Below are positions 50,939 to 62,076 of a stretch of 64,000 bases of DNA, piece by piece. Position 1 is the first letter of the stretch, and every line of letters starts with the position of its first letter. Source of the DNA: Novosphingobium barchaimii LL02 (GTDB taxonomy: Bacteria; Pseudomonadota; Alphaproteobacteria; Sphingomonadales; Sphingomonadaceae); contig NZ_KQ130452.1 of assembly GCF_001046635.1 (NCBI RefSeq), positions 1,104,668-1,168,667 on the forward strand. Direction: 5' to 3'. The translations under genes were made by a program, and so were the position numbers. Under the pieces are notes generated by a model that worked only from the letters and a program-made list of their open reading frames with translations, was not told the origin of the DNA and searched no databases.

Positions 50939-51763
50939 ATGTCTGTCATCAATACCAACATCAGCGCCATCCGCGCATCCAACGCCTCGAACGCCGCCAA
51001 CAAGATGCTCGGCACCGCGATGGAGCGCCTGTCGACCGGCAAGCGCATCAACTCGGCCAAGGACGATGCCGCCGGCCTTGCGATCTCCACCTCGATGACC
51101 TCGCAGATCCGCGGCATGAGCCAGGGCATCCGCAACGCCAACGACGGTATCTCGCTGGCGCAGACCGCCGAAGGCACGCTGTCGGAAGTCAGCAACATGC
51201 TGCAGCGCGTGCGTGAACTGGCGATCCAGTCGGCCTCGGGCACCTATCAGTCGTCGGACCGCGCGGCGATGCAGCAGGAAGTCACCGCGCTGACCTCGCA
51301 GATCTCGGACTCGTTCACGCAGGTCAAGTTCAACGGCAACACGCTGATCTCGACCACCTCGGGCACCGACCTGACCTTCGACATCCAGACCGGCTCGAAC
51401 TCGGGCGAGAAGGTCACGCTGACCGCCAAGGCCATCAACGGCGCCAACCTCGCCGCCTCGGCTCTGGACGTGACCGACGCCACCAAGGCCGCCGCCACGC
51501 TGACGAACGTGGACAATGCGCTGAAGGACGTGAACTCGACCCGCGCTTCGCTGGGCGCCGGCCAGAACCGCCTGGAATCGGCGATCAACAACCTGACCAA
51601 CACCGTCACCAACCTGTCCGACGCCAAGAGCCGCATCGAAGACGCCGACTACTCGGCCGAAACGACCGCGATGGCCAAGGCCCAGATCCTGAGCCAGGCA
51701 TCCACCGCGATGCTCGCCCAGGCCAACCAGAGCCAGCAGAACGTCCTGTCGTTGCTGCGCTAA
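50939..51763 (+). CDS. fliC: Flagellin
   Basis: This is the flagellar filament subunit. The 274-residue protein has the conserved D0/D1 N-terminus ([19 protein letters not shown] ... [21 protein letters not shown]) and C-terminus ([21 protein letters not shown] ... [10 protein letters not shown]), with a very short central region, as in many alphaproteobacterial flagellins. GGGGAA precedes the ATG. A strong terminator follows. No other flagellar gene is in the window, so the filament gene is separated from the main cluster. Confidence 0.96.
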
Positions 51764-51836
51764 GCGCAGAGCGACGCCGACACCGGCACGCCCATCGGCG
51801 CGCCGACATGGCCTCCCGTCCCCCCGGAGGTCCCAG

Positions 51837-51870
51837 CCCGGCGGTCTGCCTCCAGACCGCCGGGCGTTTC
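51837..51870 (+). terminator. Strong terminator of the flagellin gene
   Basis: A perfect 12-pair stem CCCGGCGGTCTG / CAGACCGCCGGG (51837-51848, 51853-51864) with a CCTC loop is followed by a short T-run, 73 bases after the flagellin stop. Confidence 0.85.
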
Positions 51871-51903
51871 GATCAGGTGATTGAGACAAGCCAAAACGGA
51901 GGG

Positions 51904-51936
51904 TTGCGCCGAAAGTCATAAGAACATATAATGAAC
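51904..51936 (+). promoter_or_regulatory. SOS promoter: -35/-10 with overlapping LexA box
   Basis: TTGCGC (51904-51909), a 17-base spacer and a perfect TATAAT (51927-51932) form a sigma-70 promoter. GAAC (51922-51925), seven bases and GAAC (51933-51936) form the alphaproteobacterial LexA box (GTTC-N7-GTTC on the other strand), and it covers the -10 element. Expected transcription start is at about 51939, the A of the next gene's ATG, so the message is predicted leaderless. LexA binding there would block polymerase. Confidence 0.78.
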
Positions 51937-51938
51937 AA

Positions 51939-53183
51939 ATGTCCCGTCCAACCGTCATGGAGCGGCTCGCGATTCTCGCCGATGCTGCCAAATACGACGC
52001 TTCGTGCGCCTCATCGGGCACCACGAAGCGCAATAGTCGCGACGGCAAGGGACTGGGGTCGACCACCGAAGGCATGGGCATCTGTCACGCCTATGCCCCG
52101 GATGGGCGCTGTATTTCGCTGCTCAAGCTGCTGCTGACCAACCACTGCGTGTTCGACTGCCATTATTGCATAAACCGCAAGAGCTCGAACGTGCGCCGCG
52201 CCCGCTTCACGCCGCAGGAAGTGGTCGACCTGACCCTCTCATTCTATCGTCGAAATTATATCGAGGGGCTGTTCCTGTCCTCGGGCATCATCAAATCTTC
52301 CAGCCATACGATGGAACAGCTTATAGAAGTTGCCCGTATCTTGCGGGAAGAACACGATTTTCGTGGCTACATTCACCTCAAGACCATCCCCGAGGCTGAT
52401 CCCGAACTCGTCGCGCAGGCGGGGCTGTGGGCCGACCGCGTCTCGATCAATGTCGAGCTGCCCACCGATGCCGGGCTCGCCCGCCTCGCACCCGACAAGA
52501 ATAGCGCCACGATTGAAGGCGCGATGGGCAACCTGTCGAGCGCCATCGACGACGCCCGCGATTCGCAAAAGCGTTTTACCAAAGCCCCGCGCTTTGCGCC
52601 CGCCGGACAATCCACACAGATGATCGTCGGCGCGGACGGCGCCAGCGATGCGCAGATCGTCGGCAAGGCCAGCACGCTCTACGACAGGTTTGCGCTGCGC
52701 CGGGTCTACTATTCCGCCTTCAGCCCGATCCCGGAAGCAAGCGCCGTGCTGCCGCTCAAGCGCCCGCCGCTGATGCGCGAACATCGACTCTACCAGTCCG
52801 ATTGGCTGATGCGGTTCTATGGTTTCGCACCGCACGAAGTGCAGGCAGCGGCCGATAGGGACGGGATGCTGCCGCTCGACATCGACCCCAAACTGGCCTG
52901 GGCGCTGAAATTCCGGGAGAGTTTCCCCGTCGATGTCAACCGCGCCCCTCGCGAGGCGCTGCTGCGTGTCCCCGGACTGGGCACCAAGGCGATAGACGCG
53001 TTGCTCGCCGCCCGCCGCTATCGCACGATCCGGCTGGAGGATGTGGCGCGCCTGACCGTCTCGGTAAAGAAGCTCCGGCCTTTCATCGTCACTGCCGACT
53101 GGCGCCCCACCCTGCTCACCGACCGCGCGGACCTGCGCGCGCGACTGGCGCCAAAGGCGGAACAGATGGAACTGTTCGGATGA
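51939..53183 (+). CDS. Radical-SAM protein of the UdgX-linked putative DNA repair pair
   Basis: The 414-residue protein has the radical-SAM cluster motif CVFDCHYC (C70, C74, C77) and an upstream conserved MGICHAYAPDGRCISLLK. The C-terminal helix-hairpin-helix (LLRVPGLGTKAIDALLAAR, about 340-360) is expected to bind DNA. It belongs to the radical-SAM family known to be linked to DUF4130/UdgX genes; its reaction has not been shown. It overlaps the next gene as ATGA and sits behind a LexA-controlled promoter, so a role in DNA damage is likely. The ATG at 51939 would be used without a leader; an in-frame ATG is at 51957. Confidence 0.88.
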   Translation: MSRPTVMERLAILADAAKYDASCASSGTTKRNSRDGKGLGSTTEGMGICHAYAPDGRCISLLKLLLTNHCVFDCHYCINRKSSNVRRARFTPQEVVDLTLSFYRRNYIEGLFLSSGIIKSSSHTMEQLIEVARILREEHDFRGYIHLKTIPEADPELVAQAGLWADRVSINVELPTDAGLARLAPDKNSATIEGAMGNLSSAIDDARDSQKRFTKAPRFAPAGQSTQMIVGADGASDAQIVGKASTLYDRFALRRVYYSAFSPIPEASAVLPLKRPPLMREHRLYQSDWLMRFYGFAPHEVQAAADRDGMLPLDIDPKLAWALKFRESFPVDVNRAPREALLRVPGLGTKAIDALLAARRYRTIRLEDVARLTVSVKKLRPFIVTADWRPTLLTDRADLRARLAPKAEQMELFG

Positions 53184-54682: not shown

Positions 54683-55204
54683 GTGACAGCAGAATCCTCC
54701 AGTGCCGGGCTTGAAGCGGCTTTTCTCGATAACCGGGAGAAGCTGGTCCGATTCCTGCGCGCGCGCGGCGCCGGAGAGGCGGCGGAGGATCTGGTGCAGG
54801 AAGTATGGCTGAAGATCGCCGCAAGCAGCCCCGGCCCGGTCGCCTCGCCGCTGTCGTACCTGTTCCGCACCGCCGACCTCTTGATGATCGACCGCTTCCG
54901 CTCGCAAAGGCAGGCCGGCGCGCGCGACCGGGACTGGAGCGACGTCAACGCCGGCGATCCTCCGGGCGTTTCCGCCGAACCATCGGCCGAACGGCGCATC
55001 GCCGCTGCACAGGAGGCCGCCAGCGTCCTAGCGCTTCTGGACGGACTTGGCCCCCGCATCGCCGCGATCTTCCGCCGCCACCGGATCGACGGAGCGCCGC
55101 AGAAGACCATCGCGGCAGACATGAACATCAGCCTGAGCACGGTGGAAAGCGACCTTCGCGTCGCCTACCGCGCGCTGGCCGAATGGAAGGAACGCGCGCC
55201 ATGA
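54683..55204 (+). CDS. ECF sigma factor, FecI type
   Basis: The 173-residue sigma factor has region 2 (FLRARGAGEAAEDLVQEVWLKI ... YLFRTADLLMIDRFRS) and region 4 (IFRRHRIDGAPQKTIAADMNISLSTVESDLRVAYRAL). It starts at GTG 54683. With the FecR-like anti-sigma gene and the STN-type TonB receptor just downstream it forms a cell-surface signalling operon: receptor occupancy is passed by FecR to free the sigma factor. Target promoters are unknown. The ATGA at its end starts a 24-codon ORF. Confidence 0.92.
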   Translation: MTAESSSAGLEAAFLDNREKLVRFLRARGAGEAAEDLVQEVWLKIAASSPGPVASPLSYLFRTADLLMIDRFRSQRQAGARDRDWSDVNAGDPPGVSAEPSAERRIAAAQEAASVLALLDGLGPRIAAIFRRHRIDGAPQKTIAADMNISLSTVESDLRVAYRALAEWKERAP

Positions 55205-55275
55205 AGCCGCTGGCCCCATGGGCAATCAAGGCCGCTGCCGATCGTCTCCGTCTTCGCCGCATAAGGAGCGCGTGA
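55201..55275 (+). CDS. 24-residue ORF coupled between sigma and anti-sigma genes
   Basis: ATG 55201 overlaps the sigma stop (ATGA) and the TGA at 55273-55275 overlaps the fecR ATG (TGATG). A GGAAGGAA stretch inside the sigma gene serves as ribosome-binding site. The product is a basic amphipathic peptide, MKPLAPWAIKAAADRLRLRR and four more residues. It may be only a coupling device or leader; no homologue is known to me. Confidence 0.45.
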   Translation: MKPLAPWAIKAAADRLRLRRIRSA

Positions 55276-56216
55276 TGGCGAGTGACGGCACGATACAGGA
55301 ACAGGCGCTGGATTGGGCAGTGCGCGCGGGCGACCCCGCGTTCGCCGACTGGGAAGCGTTCACCCTATGGCTGGAGGCCGACCCCGCCCACGCGCGCGCC
55401 TATGACGAGGTGACCGCCGCCGTCACTGATGCCGCCGGCCTCGCCGCTGCATCCGGCCCCGCCAACGACGACATCGTTGAGGAATATGCCCCTGCCTTGC
55501 AGGCTGCTCATGCAGGATCGGGGCCCATGTGGCTGGGCGGCGCGGTCGCGGCCTGCGTTGCGCTGGTGGGCGCGGTCTGGATGTTCCAGGGCGAGCGGCG
55601 CGATCTCTATACGGTCGAGACCGCGCTGGGCGAAACCCGTGCGGTCACGCTGGACGCTGGTACGCGTATCGAGCTGGCGGGCGGCACGACCGTCGTTTTC
55701 GACCGCCGCGACCACCGCTTCGCGCAGCTCGACAAAGGCCAAGCGTTGTTCACCGTCAGGCACGACGAAGCAAACCCATTCGCGGTGCGAGTGGGCGACA
55801 AACAGCTTGTCGACATCGGCACCGTCTTCGACGTGCGCCACGATGATGAGGGCCTTAGCGTTGCCGTGTCCGAAGGCGCCGTGCAATTCGATCCGTCCGG
55901 AGCGGACGTGCGCGTCTCGCCGGGCGAAGTACTGCGCAGCACCGCCGCGACTTATAGCGTATCGAAGATCGCGCCGGCACAAGTCGGCGAATGGCGCGAA
56001 GGCCGTCTGACTTTCGAAGCGGCATCGCCAGCCGAGGTCGCCGCTCAGCTCAAGCGCGCGACCGGCATCGACTATGCTGCCGCGCCGGGCGGCAGCGGCG
56101 CCGTGTCCGGCTCGATCCTCATCGCCCCGCTGCGCAAGGACCCCGCCGCCATCGGTCCGTTGCTTGGGCTATCGGTGGAGGCGCAGGCCAATCGCTGGGT
56201 GATCGGCGCCAGGTAA
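55275..56216 (+). CDS. FecR-family anti-sigma/sigma regulator
   Basis: The 313-residue protein has an N-terminal DUF4880 sigma-interacting domain (about 8-50), one membrane helix (about 86-104) and a periplasmic FecR domain (about 115-210: LGETRAVTLDAGTRIELAGGT, GQALFTVRHDEANPFAVRVG). A C-terminal STN-like FecR_C region follows. It carries the signal from the receptor to the sigma factor. AAGGAG precedes the ATG. The receptor gene starts three bases after its stop. Confidence 0.92.
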   Translation: MASDGTIQEQALDWAVRAGDPAFADWEAFTLWLEADPAHARAYDEVTAAVTDAAGLAAASGPANDDIVEEYAPALQAAHAGSGPMWLGGAVAACVALVGAVWMFQGERRDLYTVETALGETRAVTLDAGTRIELAGGTTVVFDRRDHRFAQLDKGQALFTVRHDEANPFAVRVGDKQLVDIGTVFDVRHDDEGLSVAVSEGAVQFDPSGADVRVSPGEVLRSTAATYSVSKIAPAQVGEWREGRLTFEAASPAEVAAQLKRATGIDYAAAPGGSGAVSGSILIAPLRKDPAAIGPLLGLSVEAQANRWVIGAR

Positions 56217-56219
56217 GTC

Positions 56220-58658
56220 ATGCGGCGGGTGCACCTGATCGTGGCGGCCATGCTGACCACGCCGCTGGCTCTGCCGGCAGCCGCCTCCGCGCAGGACGTG
56301 GTTGTCGCCACGCGCGCCGGGACAATGGGCAATGTCGCTATCGAACTGGCGCGGCAGACCGGATCGAGCATCGTCGTCGCCGACCCGCAGATCGCGCGGC
56401 GTGCGGTAGCGGCCCTGCACGGCAGGATGACCCCTGCCGAGGCCGTGCGCCGTCTCGCCCGCTCGGCGGGGGGCCGCGCGGTGGCGGTCGGCCCCGGCGC
56501 GTGGCGGATCGAGGCCGTGCCTGCGCCCCGGCCCAGCGCGCCGCGCCGCGCACCTTCGCAGGCGCGCGGCCCCTCACCCACAGATGAGGCGGCCGCCAAA
56601 CCCATCATCGTGATCGCTTCCAAACGCGATCTTGCGATCGGGCAGATTCCGGGCCAGGTCTCGATCCTTGATGGTGCTTCGCTGGAAGCCGGCGGCATCG
56701 GCGGCACCGAGAAGATCACCCAGCGCCTAGCAACGGTCACCTCCACTCACCTGGGCAGCGGGCGCAACAAGCTATTTATCCGCGGCATCGCCGATTCCAG
56801 CTTCACGGGGCCGACGCAGGCCACCGTGGGCCAGTACCTTGGCGACCTGCGTCTTACCTACAACGCCCCCGACCCTGACCTGCGCTTGTCTGACATGGCC
56901 CGCGTAGAAGTGCTGGAGGGGCCGCAGGGCACGCTTTACGGCGCAGGATCGCTGGGCGGGATCATTCGCCTCGTCCCCAATGCCCCGGTCATGGGAGAGA
57001 CCAGCGGATCGGCCGCGCTCGGCGGTTCGCTGACCCAGAACGGCTCGCCCGGCGGCGACGGCGCGGCCACCATCAACCTGCCGGTGAGCGAAAAAGTGGC
57101 CTTTCGCGCCAACTTCGATGCGGCGACGCTGGGCGGCTATATCGACAAGCCGCTGCTAGGCCGCAAGGACGTCAACCGCACCCGCATCATTGGCGGGCGG
57201 GCCAGCCTGCGCGCGCGACTTGGGCCGGAGTGGACCGTGGATCTGATCGGCCTTGGCCAGTCCACCCATGCCCGCGACAGCCAGTACGCCACCCGCTATG
57301 CCGAGCCGCCGCTGACGAGCGATGCACGGGTGCAGGAAGGCTCCGACGCGGATTATGCCATGGGGCAGTTCGTGATCTCGGGACGGATCGGCGACATCCG
57401 CGTGCGCTCAACCACCGGGGCCGTGCGCCAGCATCTGGAGGAGCGTTACGACGCCAGCCTTTCCGCCGACGCGCCGCGTGTGTTCGCGCAGGAAAACCGC
57501 ACCCGCATGATCGCCCACGAAACCCGCCTGTGGCAGCCCGAGCGCGGCGGCTTCAGCTGGATCATCGGCACCAGCTATACCCACAACCGCACCGTCCTGC
57601 GGCGCGGGTTCGAGACCGAAGTTTCCACCGCCGCCGCCACCGGCGTGCGCAATACCATCGACGAGGCCACGCTCTACGCCGAGGCCAGCATGCGCATCCG
57701 CCCCGGCCTGACCGCCACGGCAGGCGGACGCGTGACCCATTCGCGGCTGAGCGGCGCGGGCGAGGATGTGATGCCCGCCGACGCCGCATTCATCGCCATG
57801 GCCCGCGAGGCAATGACGGCGGACCGCAGCGCCACCACAGTCCTGCCCTCGGTCGCGCTGAATGCCGAGCTGTTTGGCGAGACCGCGCTCTACATGCGCT
57901 ATCAGGAGGGTTTTCGCCCCGGCGGCTTCGCGATTGAAAGCGATTTCGTCCGCCGCTTCAAGGGCGACCGCACCGGGACCTGGGAATTCGGCGTGCGCCA
58001 CGGACGGCCCGGTGCGGGCGTTTTCGACATCGCCGCCAGCATATCCTTCACCCGCTGGCGCGATATCCAGGCGGATTTCATCGATAATTCCGGCCTGCCC
58101 TCCACTGCCAATATCGGTGACGGGCGGGTCTGGTCGGCCAGCGTGAGCGGCGGTGTCCAGCTCATGACAGGCCTTCGTTTCGAGGCCGGGGCGACCTGGA
58201 ACCGGAGCAAGGTCGATACGCCGCCCACCGAACTCCTCGCGCTGGTGGCGCGGACTGCACCGGCATACGACATCGCTGGCATGAGCCTTGTCGATGCGAC
58301 GCTGGCTCGCTCCATGCAGGTGCCGAATATCGCGCAGTTCTCGGGCCGGATCGGGATCGGGTGGAACCGGGATCTGGGCGAACGCCTGCGCCTGAGTGCC
58401 AACGGCTGGGCCAGCTATGTGGGCGAATCCCGGCTCGGCATCGGGCCGGAACTGGGCCAGCCTCAGGGCGATTACCTCGATAGCGGGGCGGATATCCGTG
58501 TGGGTACTGAGCGTTACGGCGTGACGTTGACGGTCAACAACCTTACCAACTCACACGGCAATCGCTTCTCGCTGGGCACGCCTTTCGGGACCGGGCGCGA
58601 TCAGGTGACGCCGCTGCGACCGCGCACGATCAGGCTGGGGCTGGACGCGCGGTTTTAG
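56220..58658 (+). CDS. TonB-dependent receptor with N-terminal STN signalling domain
   Basis: This 812-residue outer-membrane transducer has a signal peptide to about 24 and an STN domain (about 25-80: NVAIELARQTGSSIVVADPQI, LHGRMTPAEAVRRLA). A Pro/Ala-rich linker follows, then a TonB box/plug (IIVIASKRD, IFIRGIADSSFTGPTQATVGQYLGD, LEGPQGTLYGAGSLGGIIRL) and a barrel ending in Arg-Leu-Gly-Leu-Asp-Ala-Arg-Phe. The FecA-like STN domain lets it signal through the upstream FecR and sigma factor. The plug resembles the sphingomonad receptor type with YGAGSLGG; the ligand is unknown. Confidence 0.92.
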   Translation: MRRVHLIVAAMLTTPLALPAAASAQDVVVATRAGTMGNVAIELARQTGSSIVVADPQIARRAVAALHGRMTPAEAVRRLARSAGGRAVAVGPGAWRIEAVPAPRPSAPRRAPSQARGPSPTDEAAAKPIIVIASKRDLAIGQIPGQVSILDGASLEAGGIGGTEKITQRLATVTSTHLGSGRNKLFIRGIADSSFTGPTQATVGQYLGDLRLTYNAPDPDLRLSDMARVEVLEGPQGTLYGAGSLGGIIRLVPNAPVMGETSGSAALGGSLTQNGSPGGDGAATINLPVSEKVAFRANFDAATLGGYIDKPLLGRKDVNRTRIIGGRASLRARLGPEWTVDLIGLGQSTHARDSQYATRYAEPPLTSDARVQEGSDADYAMGQFVISGRIGDIRVRSTTGAVRQHLEERYDASLSADAPRVFAQENRTRMIAHETRLWQPERGGFSWIIGTSYTHNRTVLRRGFETEVSTAAATGVRNTIDEATLYAEASMRIRPGLTATAGGRVTHSRLSGAGEDVMPADAAFIAMAREAMTADRSATTVLPSVALNAELFGETALYMRYQEGFRPGGFAIESDFVRRFKGDRTGTWEFGVRHGRPGAGVFDIAASISFTRWRDIQADFIDNSGLPSTANIGDGRVWSASVSGGVQLMTGLRFEAGATWNRSKVDTPPTELLALVARTAPAYDIAGMSLVDATLARSMQVPNIAQFSGRIGIGWNRDLGERLRLSANGWASYVGESRLGIGPELGQPQGDYLDSGADIRVGTERYGVTLTVNNLTNSHGNRFSLGTPFGTGRDQVTPLRPRTIRLGLDARF

Positions 58659-58667
58659 GCGGCGGGG

Positions 58668-58771
58668 GCTTCGACAAGCTCAGCCTGAGCGGTGTTGAAA
58701 GTATCGCGTAACCTGTAGAACCCTGTTGGAAGCACCAAGCAACTTCAGCTCACCCGGAGCTTGTCGAAGGG
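58668..58771. repeat. Inverted pair of dispersed intergenic repeats
   Basis: GCTTCGACAAGCTCAGCCTGAGCGG (58668-58692) is followed 56 bases later by its inverted partner CTCACCCGGAGCTTGTCGAAGGG (58749-58771). The shared core is CTTCGACAAGCTC. The pair can form a hairpin with a large loop and may also end the receptor mRNA. A single variant copy is at 17250. Confidence 0.75.
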
Positions 58772-58857
58772 TGCTCTGCCAGACCCCCGAACATTTTTTC
58801 AAGGCTCCCCCCACCTGCCTCCGTCTCAAGGGTCATTACCGACCTGAAGGGACGAAG

Positions 58858-61800
58858 ATGCCTCGCTACCTGTCTGCCAAGACGCTTCTCGCCACGACCG
58901 CGTTGCTGGCGATTTCCACCGCCGCGCACGCGGAGGACGTGAAGACCAAGGGAACCTCTCCGCTCAAGACCTCGACCATCAAGGCTGGCGCCGCCGATGC
59001 CATCAACGTCACCAAGGACGGCGGCGTCACCCTTACCGCCGGCACCGCGATCACGCAGGATAGCAACCACGCCGTCGCCAATGCGGGCGCGCTTGCGATC
59101 AGCAACGCCAACGGCGCGGTAGGCATCGATTCGCTGGCGGGAACCAGCGGCGACATCGTCAACACCGGCACCATTACCGTCGACGAACCCTATGTCCCCA
59201 CCGACACCGACAAGGACGGCGACCTCGATGGTCCCTTCGCGCTCGGCGCGAACCGCACCGGCATCCGCACCAAGGGCGACCAAACCGGCAAGTTTACCCA
59301 GAGCGGCACGATCACCGTCAAGGGCAACGATTCGGCTGGCATTGCCCTGGGCGGCAAGCTGACCGGCGCCTTCACCCATGACGGCACCACCACCGTGCTG
59401 GGCGACCGCACGGTGGGCATTTCGGCGCAAGCCATCGACGGCAACGTGCGCCTTGCCGGATCGGTTTCGGCGCAAGGCAAGGATGCCATCGGAGCGCGTT
59501 TCGCCGGGGACGTGAACGGCGCCATGGTGGTTCAGGGAACCATCGCCGCGACCGGCTACCGCTACACCACTCCGCCTGCCGACCCGTCCAAGCTCGACGC
59601 GGACGACCTGCTGCAGGGCGGTTCGGCGCTGATCGTCGAGGGTAACGTCAGCGGCGGCATCATCCTTGCCGTTGCTCCCAAGGCCGACCCTGCAAAGCCG
59701 GATTCGGACGCTGACGGCATAGATGACACCAAGGAAGGCAATGCCAAGGTCGTCTCCTACGGCTCCGCGGCTGCCATGCAGATCGGGGCGACCGACCGCG
59801 CCGTCACCATCGGCCCGGTCGCCGGAACCGCCAGCCAGTTCGGCCTCATCATCGACGGCGCCGTGGACGGCCAGGGCCTCTACGCAGGCGTGAACGCCAA
59901 TGGGCTGGTCATCGGCGGACGCGGCGGCGCGGTAAGCATTGCCAACGGCATTGGCGTTTCAGGGACAGTGAACGCAACCTCGAACGGCGCCAGCGCCACC
60001 GCGCTCCGCGTCGGTGCAGGCGCGACCACGCCGCAACTCCAGAACACCGGCACGATTTCGGCCACCAGTGGCAATGCCGCCGGCGCCCTTGCCACTGCCG
60101 TACGCGTCGACGCGGGCGGCAGCTTGCCGACGATCCGCAACAGCGGCACGATCAAGGCCGTTGCGGGCGAAAAGGGATCGGCCACCGCCATCTCCGACGC
60201 CAGCGGCACGGTGAACCTGATCGAGAATGCCGGCACCATCTCGGCCACCGGCGCCAAGGCCAGCACCGAGGTGCCCGGCGCACGCAACATCGCCATCGAC
60301 CTGACAACTGCTACCGGCAATGTCACGATCAGGCAGACGCAGGTCGCCTCGGGGATCACCGCACCGGCCATCGTCGGCGACGTAAGGCTGGCCGGCGGCA
60401 ACGACCTGCTCGATCTGGCCGACGGCACGCTGACCGGCAACGTCAGCTTCGGCGGCGGCAACAACACGCTCAATCTTTTGGGCGATGCAGTACAGACAGG
60501 CGCGGTGAGCTTCGGTGCGGGCGCGGATACGATCTCGCTGGCCGGGACCAGCGCCTACAATGGCGCGGTGGACTTTGGCGGCGGCGCCGATGCGCTGAAC
60601 CTGTCGGGCACCGCCTACTTCGGCGGCTCGATCGCCAATTCGGCCAATCTCGCGGTCAAGGTCGCGGGCGGTACGCTCGACATCAACAAACCCGCTTCGA
60701 TCGGCTCGCTCGATGTAGGTGCGAGCGGCGTGGTGCTGGTGACGCTGGACAAGACCGCCGGGGCTGGCTCGGCCTACACCGTTTCGGGCAATGCCAGCTT
60801 CGCGGATGGCTCGAAGCTGGCGATCCGTCTTGCCGATGTCGCCACGGCCGAGGGCAGCTATCAGGTCCTAACCGCCGGCAATTTGACCGGGCGTGACAAG
60901 CTCGCCACCAACACCGACCTCGTGCCTTTCATGTTCAAGGCCGAGCTGGACAAGGAGGCCGCCGCCAACACCATCGTCGTCGATGTATCGCGCCGCACCG
61001 TCAGCGAACTGGGCCTCAACCGCTCGGGCGCATCGGCTTACGACGCGGTGTTCGACGTACTGGGCAAGGACGAGAAGATCGGCGACGTGTTTCTGGGCAT
61101 CACCAACGGCGACCAGTTCCGCGCCGCCGTTGGCCAGTTGCTACCCGATCATGCGGGCGGCGCCTTCGAGGGCTTGAGCCTGGGCACCCGCGCCCTCGCC
61201 CGCCAGATGCAGGACCCTCAAGGGCCCATAACCCGCAGCGGCCGCTTCACCACCTCGCTTAACATGGCGGTCTGGGGCAGCGACCGGAAGACCGGCCAAA
61301 GCGCGGCCTACAAGCTGAGCGGTTACGCGTGGTCCGCTAGCGGCGAGTACGAAACCAAGATGGGCCGATTCGGCGCCACGTTCGCCTACCTGTGGAACAA
61401 CCATAAGAACGGCCAGGTCTCCGAGGTGGACTCCACCGCGTTCGAACTGGCGGCGCACTGGCGCGGCAAGTTCGGTCCGCTAAGCGCCTTCGCGCGCGGC
61501 TCGTTCGGCAAGGCCGACTTCGACGGGGAACGCACCTTCACCGGCGCCATCGGCACCGAGACGGTGAACCGCAAGATGGATGCCAGCTGGAAGGGCAATT
61601 TCGTCACTGCCAGCGGCGGCGCAGCCTATGAGGGCGGCGGGCAGTTCTTCTTCTTCCGGCCCGGCGTCACCGTCGACTACCTGCGCCTGAAGGAGAACGG
61701 CTACACCGAAAAGGGCGGCGAGACGCTGAACCTGATCGTGGATGCCCGCACCAGCGACGAACTGGCGGTGAACCCCAGCATGACCGTGGGCGTCGATTTC

Positions 61801-62076
61801 CTGGGTATGCGCGCCAAGGACGAAAACTGGCTGCGCATGGAAACCGAAGGTGGCTGGCGTGAAATCGTCAAGGGCGGCCTGGGCGCGACCACCGCGCACT
61901 TCGACGGCGGCAAGGACTTCACCCTCACCGGCGACGATGCGACGAGCGGCTGGTTCGCGCGCCTGCGGGCGATTGGTGGTTCGTCCGGCTTTACGATGGG
62001 CGGAGAAGTTTCCGCCGAAGACCGTCACGGGCGGGTCGATCTGGCCCTGCGCGCGTCGGTCTCGGTGGGCTGGTAA
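58858..62076 (+). CDS. Autotransporter (type Va) with internal calcium-type motifs
   Basis: The 1072-residue protein has a signal peptide to about 25, a beta-helix-like passenger rich in Gly, Thr, Asn and Ala (repeats such as NTGTISATSG, NSGTIKAVAG and GGGNNTLNLLGD), and a C-terminal 12-strand autotransporter barrel from about 810 to the final VSVGW. Two Asp-rich segments, TDTDKDGDLDG (115-125) and KPDSDADGIDD (280-290), look like calcium-binding thrombospondin-type-3 motifs. GAAGGG lies just before the ATG. The surface role (adhesion or other) is unknown. It follows the receptor on the same strand, separated by a repeat. Confidence 0.9.
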   Translation: MPRYLSAKTLLATTALLAISTAAHAEDVKTKGTSPLKTSTIKAGAADAINVTKDGGVTLTAGTAITQDSNHAVANAGALAISNANGAVGIDSLAGTSGDIVNTGTITVDEPYVPTDTDKDGDLDGPFALGANRTGIRTKGDQTGKFTQSGTITVKGNDSAGIALGGKLTGAFTHDGTTTVLGDRTVGISAQAIDGNVRLAGSVSAQGKDAIGARFAGDVNGAMVVQGTIAATGYRYTTPPADPSKLDADDLLQGGSALIVEGNVSGGIILAVAPKADPAKPDSDADGIDDTKEGNAKVVSYGSAAAMQIGATDRAVTIGPVAGTASQFGLIIDGAVDGQGLYAGVNANGLVIGGRGGAVSIANGIGVSGTVNATSNGASATALRVGAGATTPQLQNTGTISATSGNAAGALATAVRVDAGGSLPTIRNSGTIKAVAGEKGSATAISDASGTVNLIENAGTISATGAKASTEVPGARNIAIDLTTATGNVTIRQTQVASGITAPAIVGDVRLAGGNDLLDLADGTLTGNVSFGGGNNTLNLLGDAVQTGAVSFGAGADTISLAGTSAYNGAVDFGGGADALNLSGTAYFGGSIANSANLAVKVAGGTLDINKPASIGSLDVGASGVVLVTLDKTAGAGSAYTVSGNASFADGSKLAIRLADVATAEGSYQVLTAGNLTGRDKLATNTDLVPFMFKAELDKEAAANTIVVDVSRRTVSELGLNRSGASAYDAVFDVLGKDEKIGDVFLGITNGDQFRAAVGQLLPDHAGGAFEGLSLGTRALARQMQDPQGPITRSGRFTTSLNMAVWGSDRKTGQSAAYKLSGYAWSASGEYETKMGRFGATFAYLWNNHKNGQVSEVDSTAFELAAHWRGKFGPLSAFARGSFGKADFDGERTFTGAIGTETVNRKMDASWKGNFVTASGGAAYEGGGQFFFFRPGVTVDYLRLKENGYTEKGGETLNLIVDARTSDELAVNPSMTVGVDFLGMRAKDENWLRMETEGGWREIVKGGLGATTAHFDGGKDFTLTGDDATSGWFARLRAIGGSSGFTMGGEVSAEDRHGRVDLALRASVSVGW

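Follow-up and report, generated by a model that had tools for sequence, protein, structure and literature searches.

LexA regulation of the COG1573-COG4277 pair, a base-excision operon, has already been published (PMC8565304); for Verrucomicrobia and Alphaproteobacteria that paper refers to Erill 2016 and da Rocha 2008, and it gives GTTC-N7-GTTC as the alphaproteobacterial LexA motif. The operon it describes is like the one found in the window (the whole 64,000-nt stretch of DNA analysed here), with a UDG-family gene and COG4277 under LexA (predicted, in the window) and an alphaproteobacterial GTTC-N7-GTTC box. The window differs in the position of this box over the -10 element, which PMC8565304 is not known to discuss; the word "leaderless" is absent from its main text. 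Since LexA control of the UDG/COG4277 pair has been reported, the SOS part of our finding is not new, and a leaderless SOS gene is likewise already known.

Leaderless mRNAs typically carry an ATG start codon. They are common in alphaproteobacteria, with 375 of them in Caulobacter (PMC4117421) and 119 pairs of transcription start site (TSS) and gene in Zymomonas (PMC7566282), the latter paper counting a message as leaderless when its 5' end is no more than 5 nt away from the start codon. Like the message we predict for the window, these transcripts begin at the start codon or a few nt from it. The promoter type reported for Zymomonas is also that of the window, TTG-N17-TA, in Zymomonas without T-7. 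Unlike the window element, neither of the two studies brings in LexA, which goes unmentioned in their main texts.

Two damage responses outside the alphaproteobacteria offer further comparisons. In Mycobacterium tuberculosis the start codon of lexA, an SOS gene, lies at the transcription start (PMC2897130), similar to the layout predicted here, but the phylum and the gene are different. The IrrE/DdrO radiation regulon of Deinococcus is, likewise, a damage regulon, in a bacterium that has leaderless mRNAs, and its operator position tracks the induced start; however, repressor and operator are not the same, and the leaderless examples given in that report are not the radiation-induced ones (PMC5552922). 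For the SOS response of Caulobacter, LexA box properties including the distance to the gene did not predict the timing of induction (PMC12700426), and "leaderless" is absent from the main text of that study. A conserved fusion of operator, -10 element and start codon was not recognised among the papers listed, mostly open-access and screened by titles and abstract openings, and appears to be new.

Anatomy of the predicted promoter and its operon

The initial annotation of this DNA described TTGCGC-N17-TATAAT followed by an ATG at the expected +1, a GAAC-N7-GAAC LexA target covering the -10 element, and promoter, operator and start codon packed into 38 bases. The first of these readings is correct to the base, the box does span the hexamer, and the coordinates of the whole element match exactly (Table 1). 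Applied to the window, the promoter model derived from Zymomonas would place the +1 on the A of the ATG. This ATG is the first in-frame ATG, GTG or TTG downstream of a stop at 51882, and a second in-frame ATG is located at 51957.

Table 1 Features of the predicted promoter, the radical SAM/UdgX operon and its upstream neighbourhood (positions in the window).
Feature	Position	Strand	Evidence
Flagellin gene, upstream neighbour	50939-51763		profile matches
Hairpin past flagellin gene, 13-pair stem, 4-nt loop	51836-51865	+	fold -35.1 kcal/mol for 51830-51885, z -5.8
-35 element TTGCGC	51904-51909	+	direct reading; 3/6 consensus matches under generic sigma-70 scan
-35/-10 spacer, 17 nt	51910-51926	+	direct reading
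LexA box (predicted), GAACATATAATGAAC = GAAC-N7-GAAC	51922-51936	+	direct reading; half-sites 51922-51925 and 51933-51936
-10 element TATAAT, within LexA box	51927-51932	+	direct reading
Predicted +1	51939	+	inferred: 6-nt gap after -10 is the commonest Zymomonas discriminator length
Start codon ATG	51939-51941	+	direct reading; 6 nt past -10
Radical SAM protein TIGR03916 (rSAM_link_UDG), predicted leaderless	51939-53183	+	562.2 bits vs cut-off 343.5; Radical_SAM Pfam domain
TIGR03915 + UdgX-type uracil-DNA binding protein TIGR03914	53180-54568	+	both above cut-offs

With nothing but the window sequence to go on, the finding would be weak. Two copies of GAACN7GAAC are present in the 64,000 nt compared with 1.42 expected, and 44 of 100 shuffles reach two. 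Within the window the LexA box by itself is unremarkable; its significance comes from conservation. The other copy of the motif (61759-61773) lies within a long open frame (58726-62076) and is probably a chance occurrence. A generic sigma-70 scan called 0 promoters in the window, because it requires four of six matches per hexamer and TTGCGC has three, so that this null result carries little weight.

The first gene of the operon belongs to TIGR03916, which we take to be equivalent to COG4277. The UdgX assignment of the second (TIGR03914) rests on 288.6 bits against a cut-off of 189.95. Its UdgX domain matches the UdgX structure 6ail in the PDB with an E value of 3.7e-44, and GKIRLH aligns with GKRRIH including the KRRIH-type histidine, a residue that we presume to have a role in UdgX. 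Stop and start codons of the two genes overlap as ATGA (53180-53183), which suggests that translation of the second gene may be coupled to that of the first. A match to the second protein was found in the flank of 74 of 80 related loci (the best 80 of at least 594), and two of the misses, L016 and L068, are cut by contig ends.

The strong hairpin past the flagellin gene is possibly a terminator that parts the operon from upstream transcription. A terminator scan of the window did not flag it, and only a weak T tract follows the stem. Downstream of the operon (54683-58658) an ECF sigma factor precedes what by eye are a FecR-like anti-sigma factor and a TonB-type receptor; this is likely an iron or siderophore uptake unit.

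Conservation among close relatives

Relatives were obtained by a contig search for the radical SAM protein, of which the best 80 of at least 594 were kept, with 73-93% protein identity. Going by their names we take 77 of the 80 to be Sphingomonadales, while L016, L034 and L053 are placed only to class or phylum. An 81-row profile anchored on the box was built from these 80 relatives with the window as row 81.

The GAAC-N7-GAAC operator motif is conserved in the orthologues, and relatives have it at lexA and recA too. The copy at the radical SAM gene is perfect in 78 of the best 80 of at least 594, while L050 and L057 each depart from it at a single base of the second half-site. Measured from the base with which the box begins, the start codon lies at +17 in 64 of these best 80, at +18 in six and at +19 in one. 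It thus falls at +17 to +19 in 71 loci; the other nine have it at +22 to +42 and are leadered. All 71 close starts are ATG, as in the window, a count to be read with the start-assignment rule in mind, which favoured ATG.

A promoter signature is visible around the box as well. In 74 of the best 80 of at least 594, T.G occupies the position set by a 17-nt spacer, compared with no more than 21 at each of the other offsets between -50 and -7, and T.G.C is found at the -35 position in 53. Across the 81 rows of best relatives plus window, the hexamer has T at place 1 in 75, G at place 3 in 78 and C at place 5 in 57, strict TTG being present in only 32. Outside this hexamer most upstream positions of the profile hold little information. 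All 81 rows have TA at box positions 6-7. Perfect TATAAT is restricted to the window, the other rows reading TANNNN, and the sixth base of the -10 element (box position 11, T-7) is not conserved. Fifteen of the same 81 rows have the box version TATAAGGAAC, which resembles a Shine-Dalgarno sequence, were transcription to begin further upstream. Because the overlapped layout of promoter, likely LexA site and start codon recurs in most of the close relatives examined, we consider it very probably real.

In three Erythrobacter-type loci with longer leaders (L018, L030 and L032), an inverted repeat of the type GGAAC..GTTCC, seen by eye, begins within the box's second half; AAAGGTG lies between its arms or overlaps them.

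Promoter signature and LexA requirement

All 29 nearest-family genomes searched, a sample that excludes the window's own assembly, have a lexA match, 28 of them over the cut-off. The GAAC-N7-GAAC direct repeat was found upstream of lexA at 27 of 28 nearest-family loci and upstream of recA at 25 of 27. These repeats mostly read GTTC on the strand of the gene (26 lexA and 24 recA loci) and mostly lie further from the start than the box of the radical SAM gene. Few of them have TA at box positions 6-7, namely 3 of 29 lexA boxes (one more with L141) and 1 of 25 recA boxes in the nearest family, and a LexA requirement for TA within the box was thereby ruled out. Invariant at the radical SAM gene but rare at lexA and recA, the TA reads in this comparison as a -10 signature that belongs to the promoter. 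The tie between the radical SAM/UdgX operon and the SOS response, put forward in the initial annotation, is supported by the conservation in orthologues together with the boxes at lexA and recA.

Zymomonas mobilis is itself a sphingomonad. Its mapped sigma-A promoters read TTGNNN and TANNNN without T-7, most commonly with a spacer of 17 bp and a discriminator of 6 bp, and Caulobacter sigma-A promoters likewise have no T-7 (PMC7566282). The missing conservation of T-7 across our rows is therefore expected. The same published model and the comparison across relatives both lend support to the leaderless start that had been predicted.

Distribution within the class

Among 385 alphaproteobacterial genomes, the gene was found above the cut-off in 25. 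A sense GAAC box is located near the start in 23 of these, the exceptions being L222 with no box within 220 nt and L223 with a reversed box 103 nt from the anchor. Ten of the 23 boxed loci have their start at a distance of 16-19 nt. Four of the 25 are from the nearest family; of the 21 outside, 19 are boxed, but just 7 have a start at 16-19 nt, the other 12 boxed loci being leadered. By this comparison, conservation of the operator-promoter fusion reaches further than that of leaderlessness. An operator overlying the -10 element is widespread in the class, and leaderless versions seem to prevail in Sphingomonadales without being the sole form there. Some of the loci with a more distant start (L086, L090, L227 and L232) have a purine-rich, Shine-Dalgarno-like stretch after the box; that of L230 runs right up to the ATG, which would leave too little distance.

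Proposed mechanism and alternative explanations

The 38 bases most likely form a compact SOS promoter that is repressed by LexA and gives rise to a leaderless message. From the geometry and conservation seen in the sequence we infer LexA binding, transcript start, induction, leaderless translation and coupling as follows. RNA polymerase with the housekeeping sigma factor would recognise TTG-N17-TA. Intact LexA on GAAC-N7-GAAC would cover about -17 to -3, that is the -10 element and the discriminator, and should therefore exclude the polymerase or block melting. Upon DNA damage, active RecA would lead to self-cleavage of LexA and the radical SAM/UdgX operon would be transcribed. Transcription starting on the A of the ATG, or no more than about 2 nt away from it, would yield an mRNA without a leader, on whose 5'-terminal AUG ribosomes would begin without a Shine-Dalgarno sequence, and the second gene would be translated by coupling via the ATGA overlap.

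A chance match of the box, with the operon outside LexA control, is hardly credible. By chance a window should contain 1.4 copies of GAACN7GAAC, but a strict box stands at the gene in 78 of the best 80 of at least 594 relatives though the other upstream DNA is little conserved, and a repeat identical in form precedes lexA and recA; we rejected a chance box on this conservation. A real box and promoter could also produce a leadered mRNA, either from a start further upstream or with non-Shine-Dalgarno translation from the second in-frame ATG. This could serve as a start codon, leaders are present in 9 of the best 80 of at least 594 relatives and in 12 of the 19 boxed loci from other families, and non-Shine-Dalgarno leadered mRNAs are common in Caulobacter (PMC4117421). 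However, most relatives whose upstream sequences were compared have no ATG at the second place and have an ATG 17 nt from the box, and the -35/-10 spacing fixes the +1 near the first ATG, which makes a leadered message at this locus unlikely.

If the message is leaderless, this form may or may not have a regulatory meaning. A subset of sphingomonad SOS operons, namely radical SAM/UdgX and some of the mutasome operons of imuA type, might constitute a leaderless translation class in which LexA operator, -10 element and start codon are locked together and whose AUG-first messages are released by damage and read by a leaderless-competent ribosome pool, as a translational layer on top of LexA; we regard this extension as rather doubtful. 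There is a somewhat better than even chance that leaderlessness is real but incidental to the packing of the operator onto the -10 element, which would be compatible with the anatomy of a compact promoter. Related loci with longer leaders retain the operator over the -10 element, and Caulobacter leaderless mRNAs are reported to be translated about as efficiently as leadered ones during normal growth (PMC4117421), which argues against an automatic stress advantage. On the other hand, the exact 17-nt distance kept in 64 of the best 80 of at least 594 relatives suggests that the arrangement is maintained, as does a candidate start at 15-19 nt in 12 of 27 boxed imuA-like loci.

As a compact LexA-repressed promoter with a leaderless message, the element would be a minimal, well conserved and easily testable module in which a single short DNA holds operator, core promoter and translation start. 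The comparison lends support to the little-studied radical SAM/UdgX operon as a sphingomonad SOS function. Moreover, the naturally occurring leaderless and leadered versions of one SOS promoter provide a test set for the role of leaderlessness in DNA damage.

Other genes with the same geometry

The pattern box-N1-3-ATG gave 44 matches in 34 of 99 genomes of the order compared with 6 for the reversed pattern. The 26 nearest-family genomes account for 27 of these against 0 reversed, and the excess is weaker in the other 73 genomes of the order (17 against 6). The loci listed, 30 for the 44 matches, comprised 16 of the nearest family, with nine TIGR03916, three ImuA-like and others, and 14 from other families that are neither TIGR03916 nor ImuA-like. 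Extending the search to the orders of G034 and G040 added one new locus and none, respectively. Note that the ImuA-like calls at these compact-pattern loci, at 24.8-44.6 bits, are below the cut-off of 150.

ImuA-like protein matches are found in 29 of 39 nearest-family genomes, and 27 of 30 imuA-like loci have an upstream box. The 12 candidate starts close to the box are in frame and consist of 10 ATG, one GTG and one TTG. The geometry T.G-N15-box occurs at 24 places in 14 nearest-family genomes compared with two for the reversed control. Eight of the 24 are TIGR03916, their ATG lying at +17 in every case; two are ImuA-like with starts at +17 and +44; the remaining 14 were judged by their longest open frame only. 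That all SOS genes of sphingomonad genomes are leaderless was rejected, as the recA and lexA boxes are mostly in the opposite orientation and further from the start. The leaderless form would thus be a feature of the radical SAM/UdgX operon and some of the imuA operons rather than of the regulon as a whole.

The sequence GANTC, presumably the CcrM methylation motif, is present in the 35 nt that follow the LexA box at 26 of 29 imuA-like loci (L189-L218) and within 36 nt upstream at 9 of 29. The background is 3.8% of 9000 random 35-mers from 30 imuA-like loci, and 6 of 78 loci have the motif at the radical SAM gene. An overlap of LexA box and GANTC has been offered as an explanation in other alphaproteobacteria (PMC7987155); at imuA the motif lies outside the box and is therefore not covered by it. 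Control of imuA by the cell cycle or by methylation may be considered. Finally, L253 and L256, each from a single genome, are by eye parC- and dinB-like genes with a LexA box in the T.G-N15-box geometry and longer leaders.
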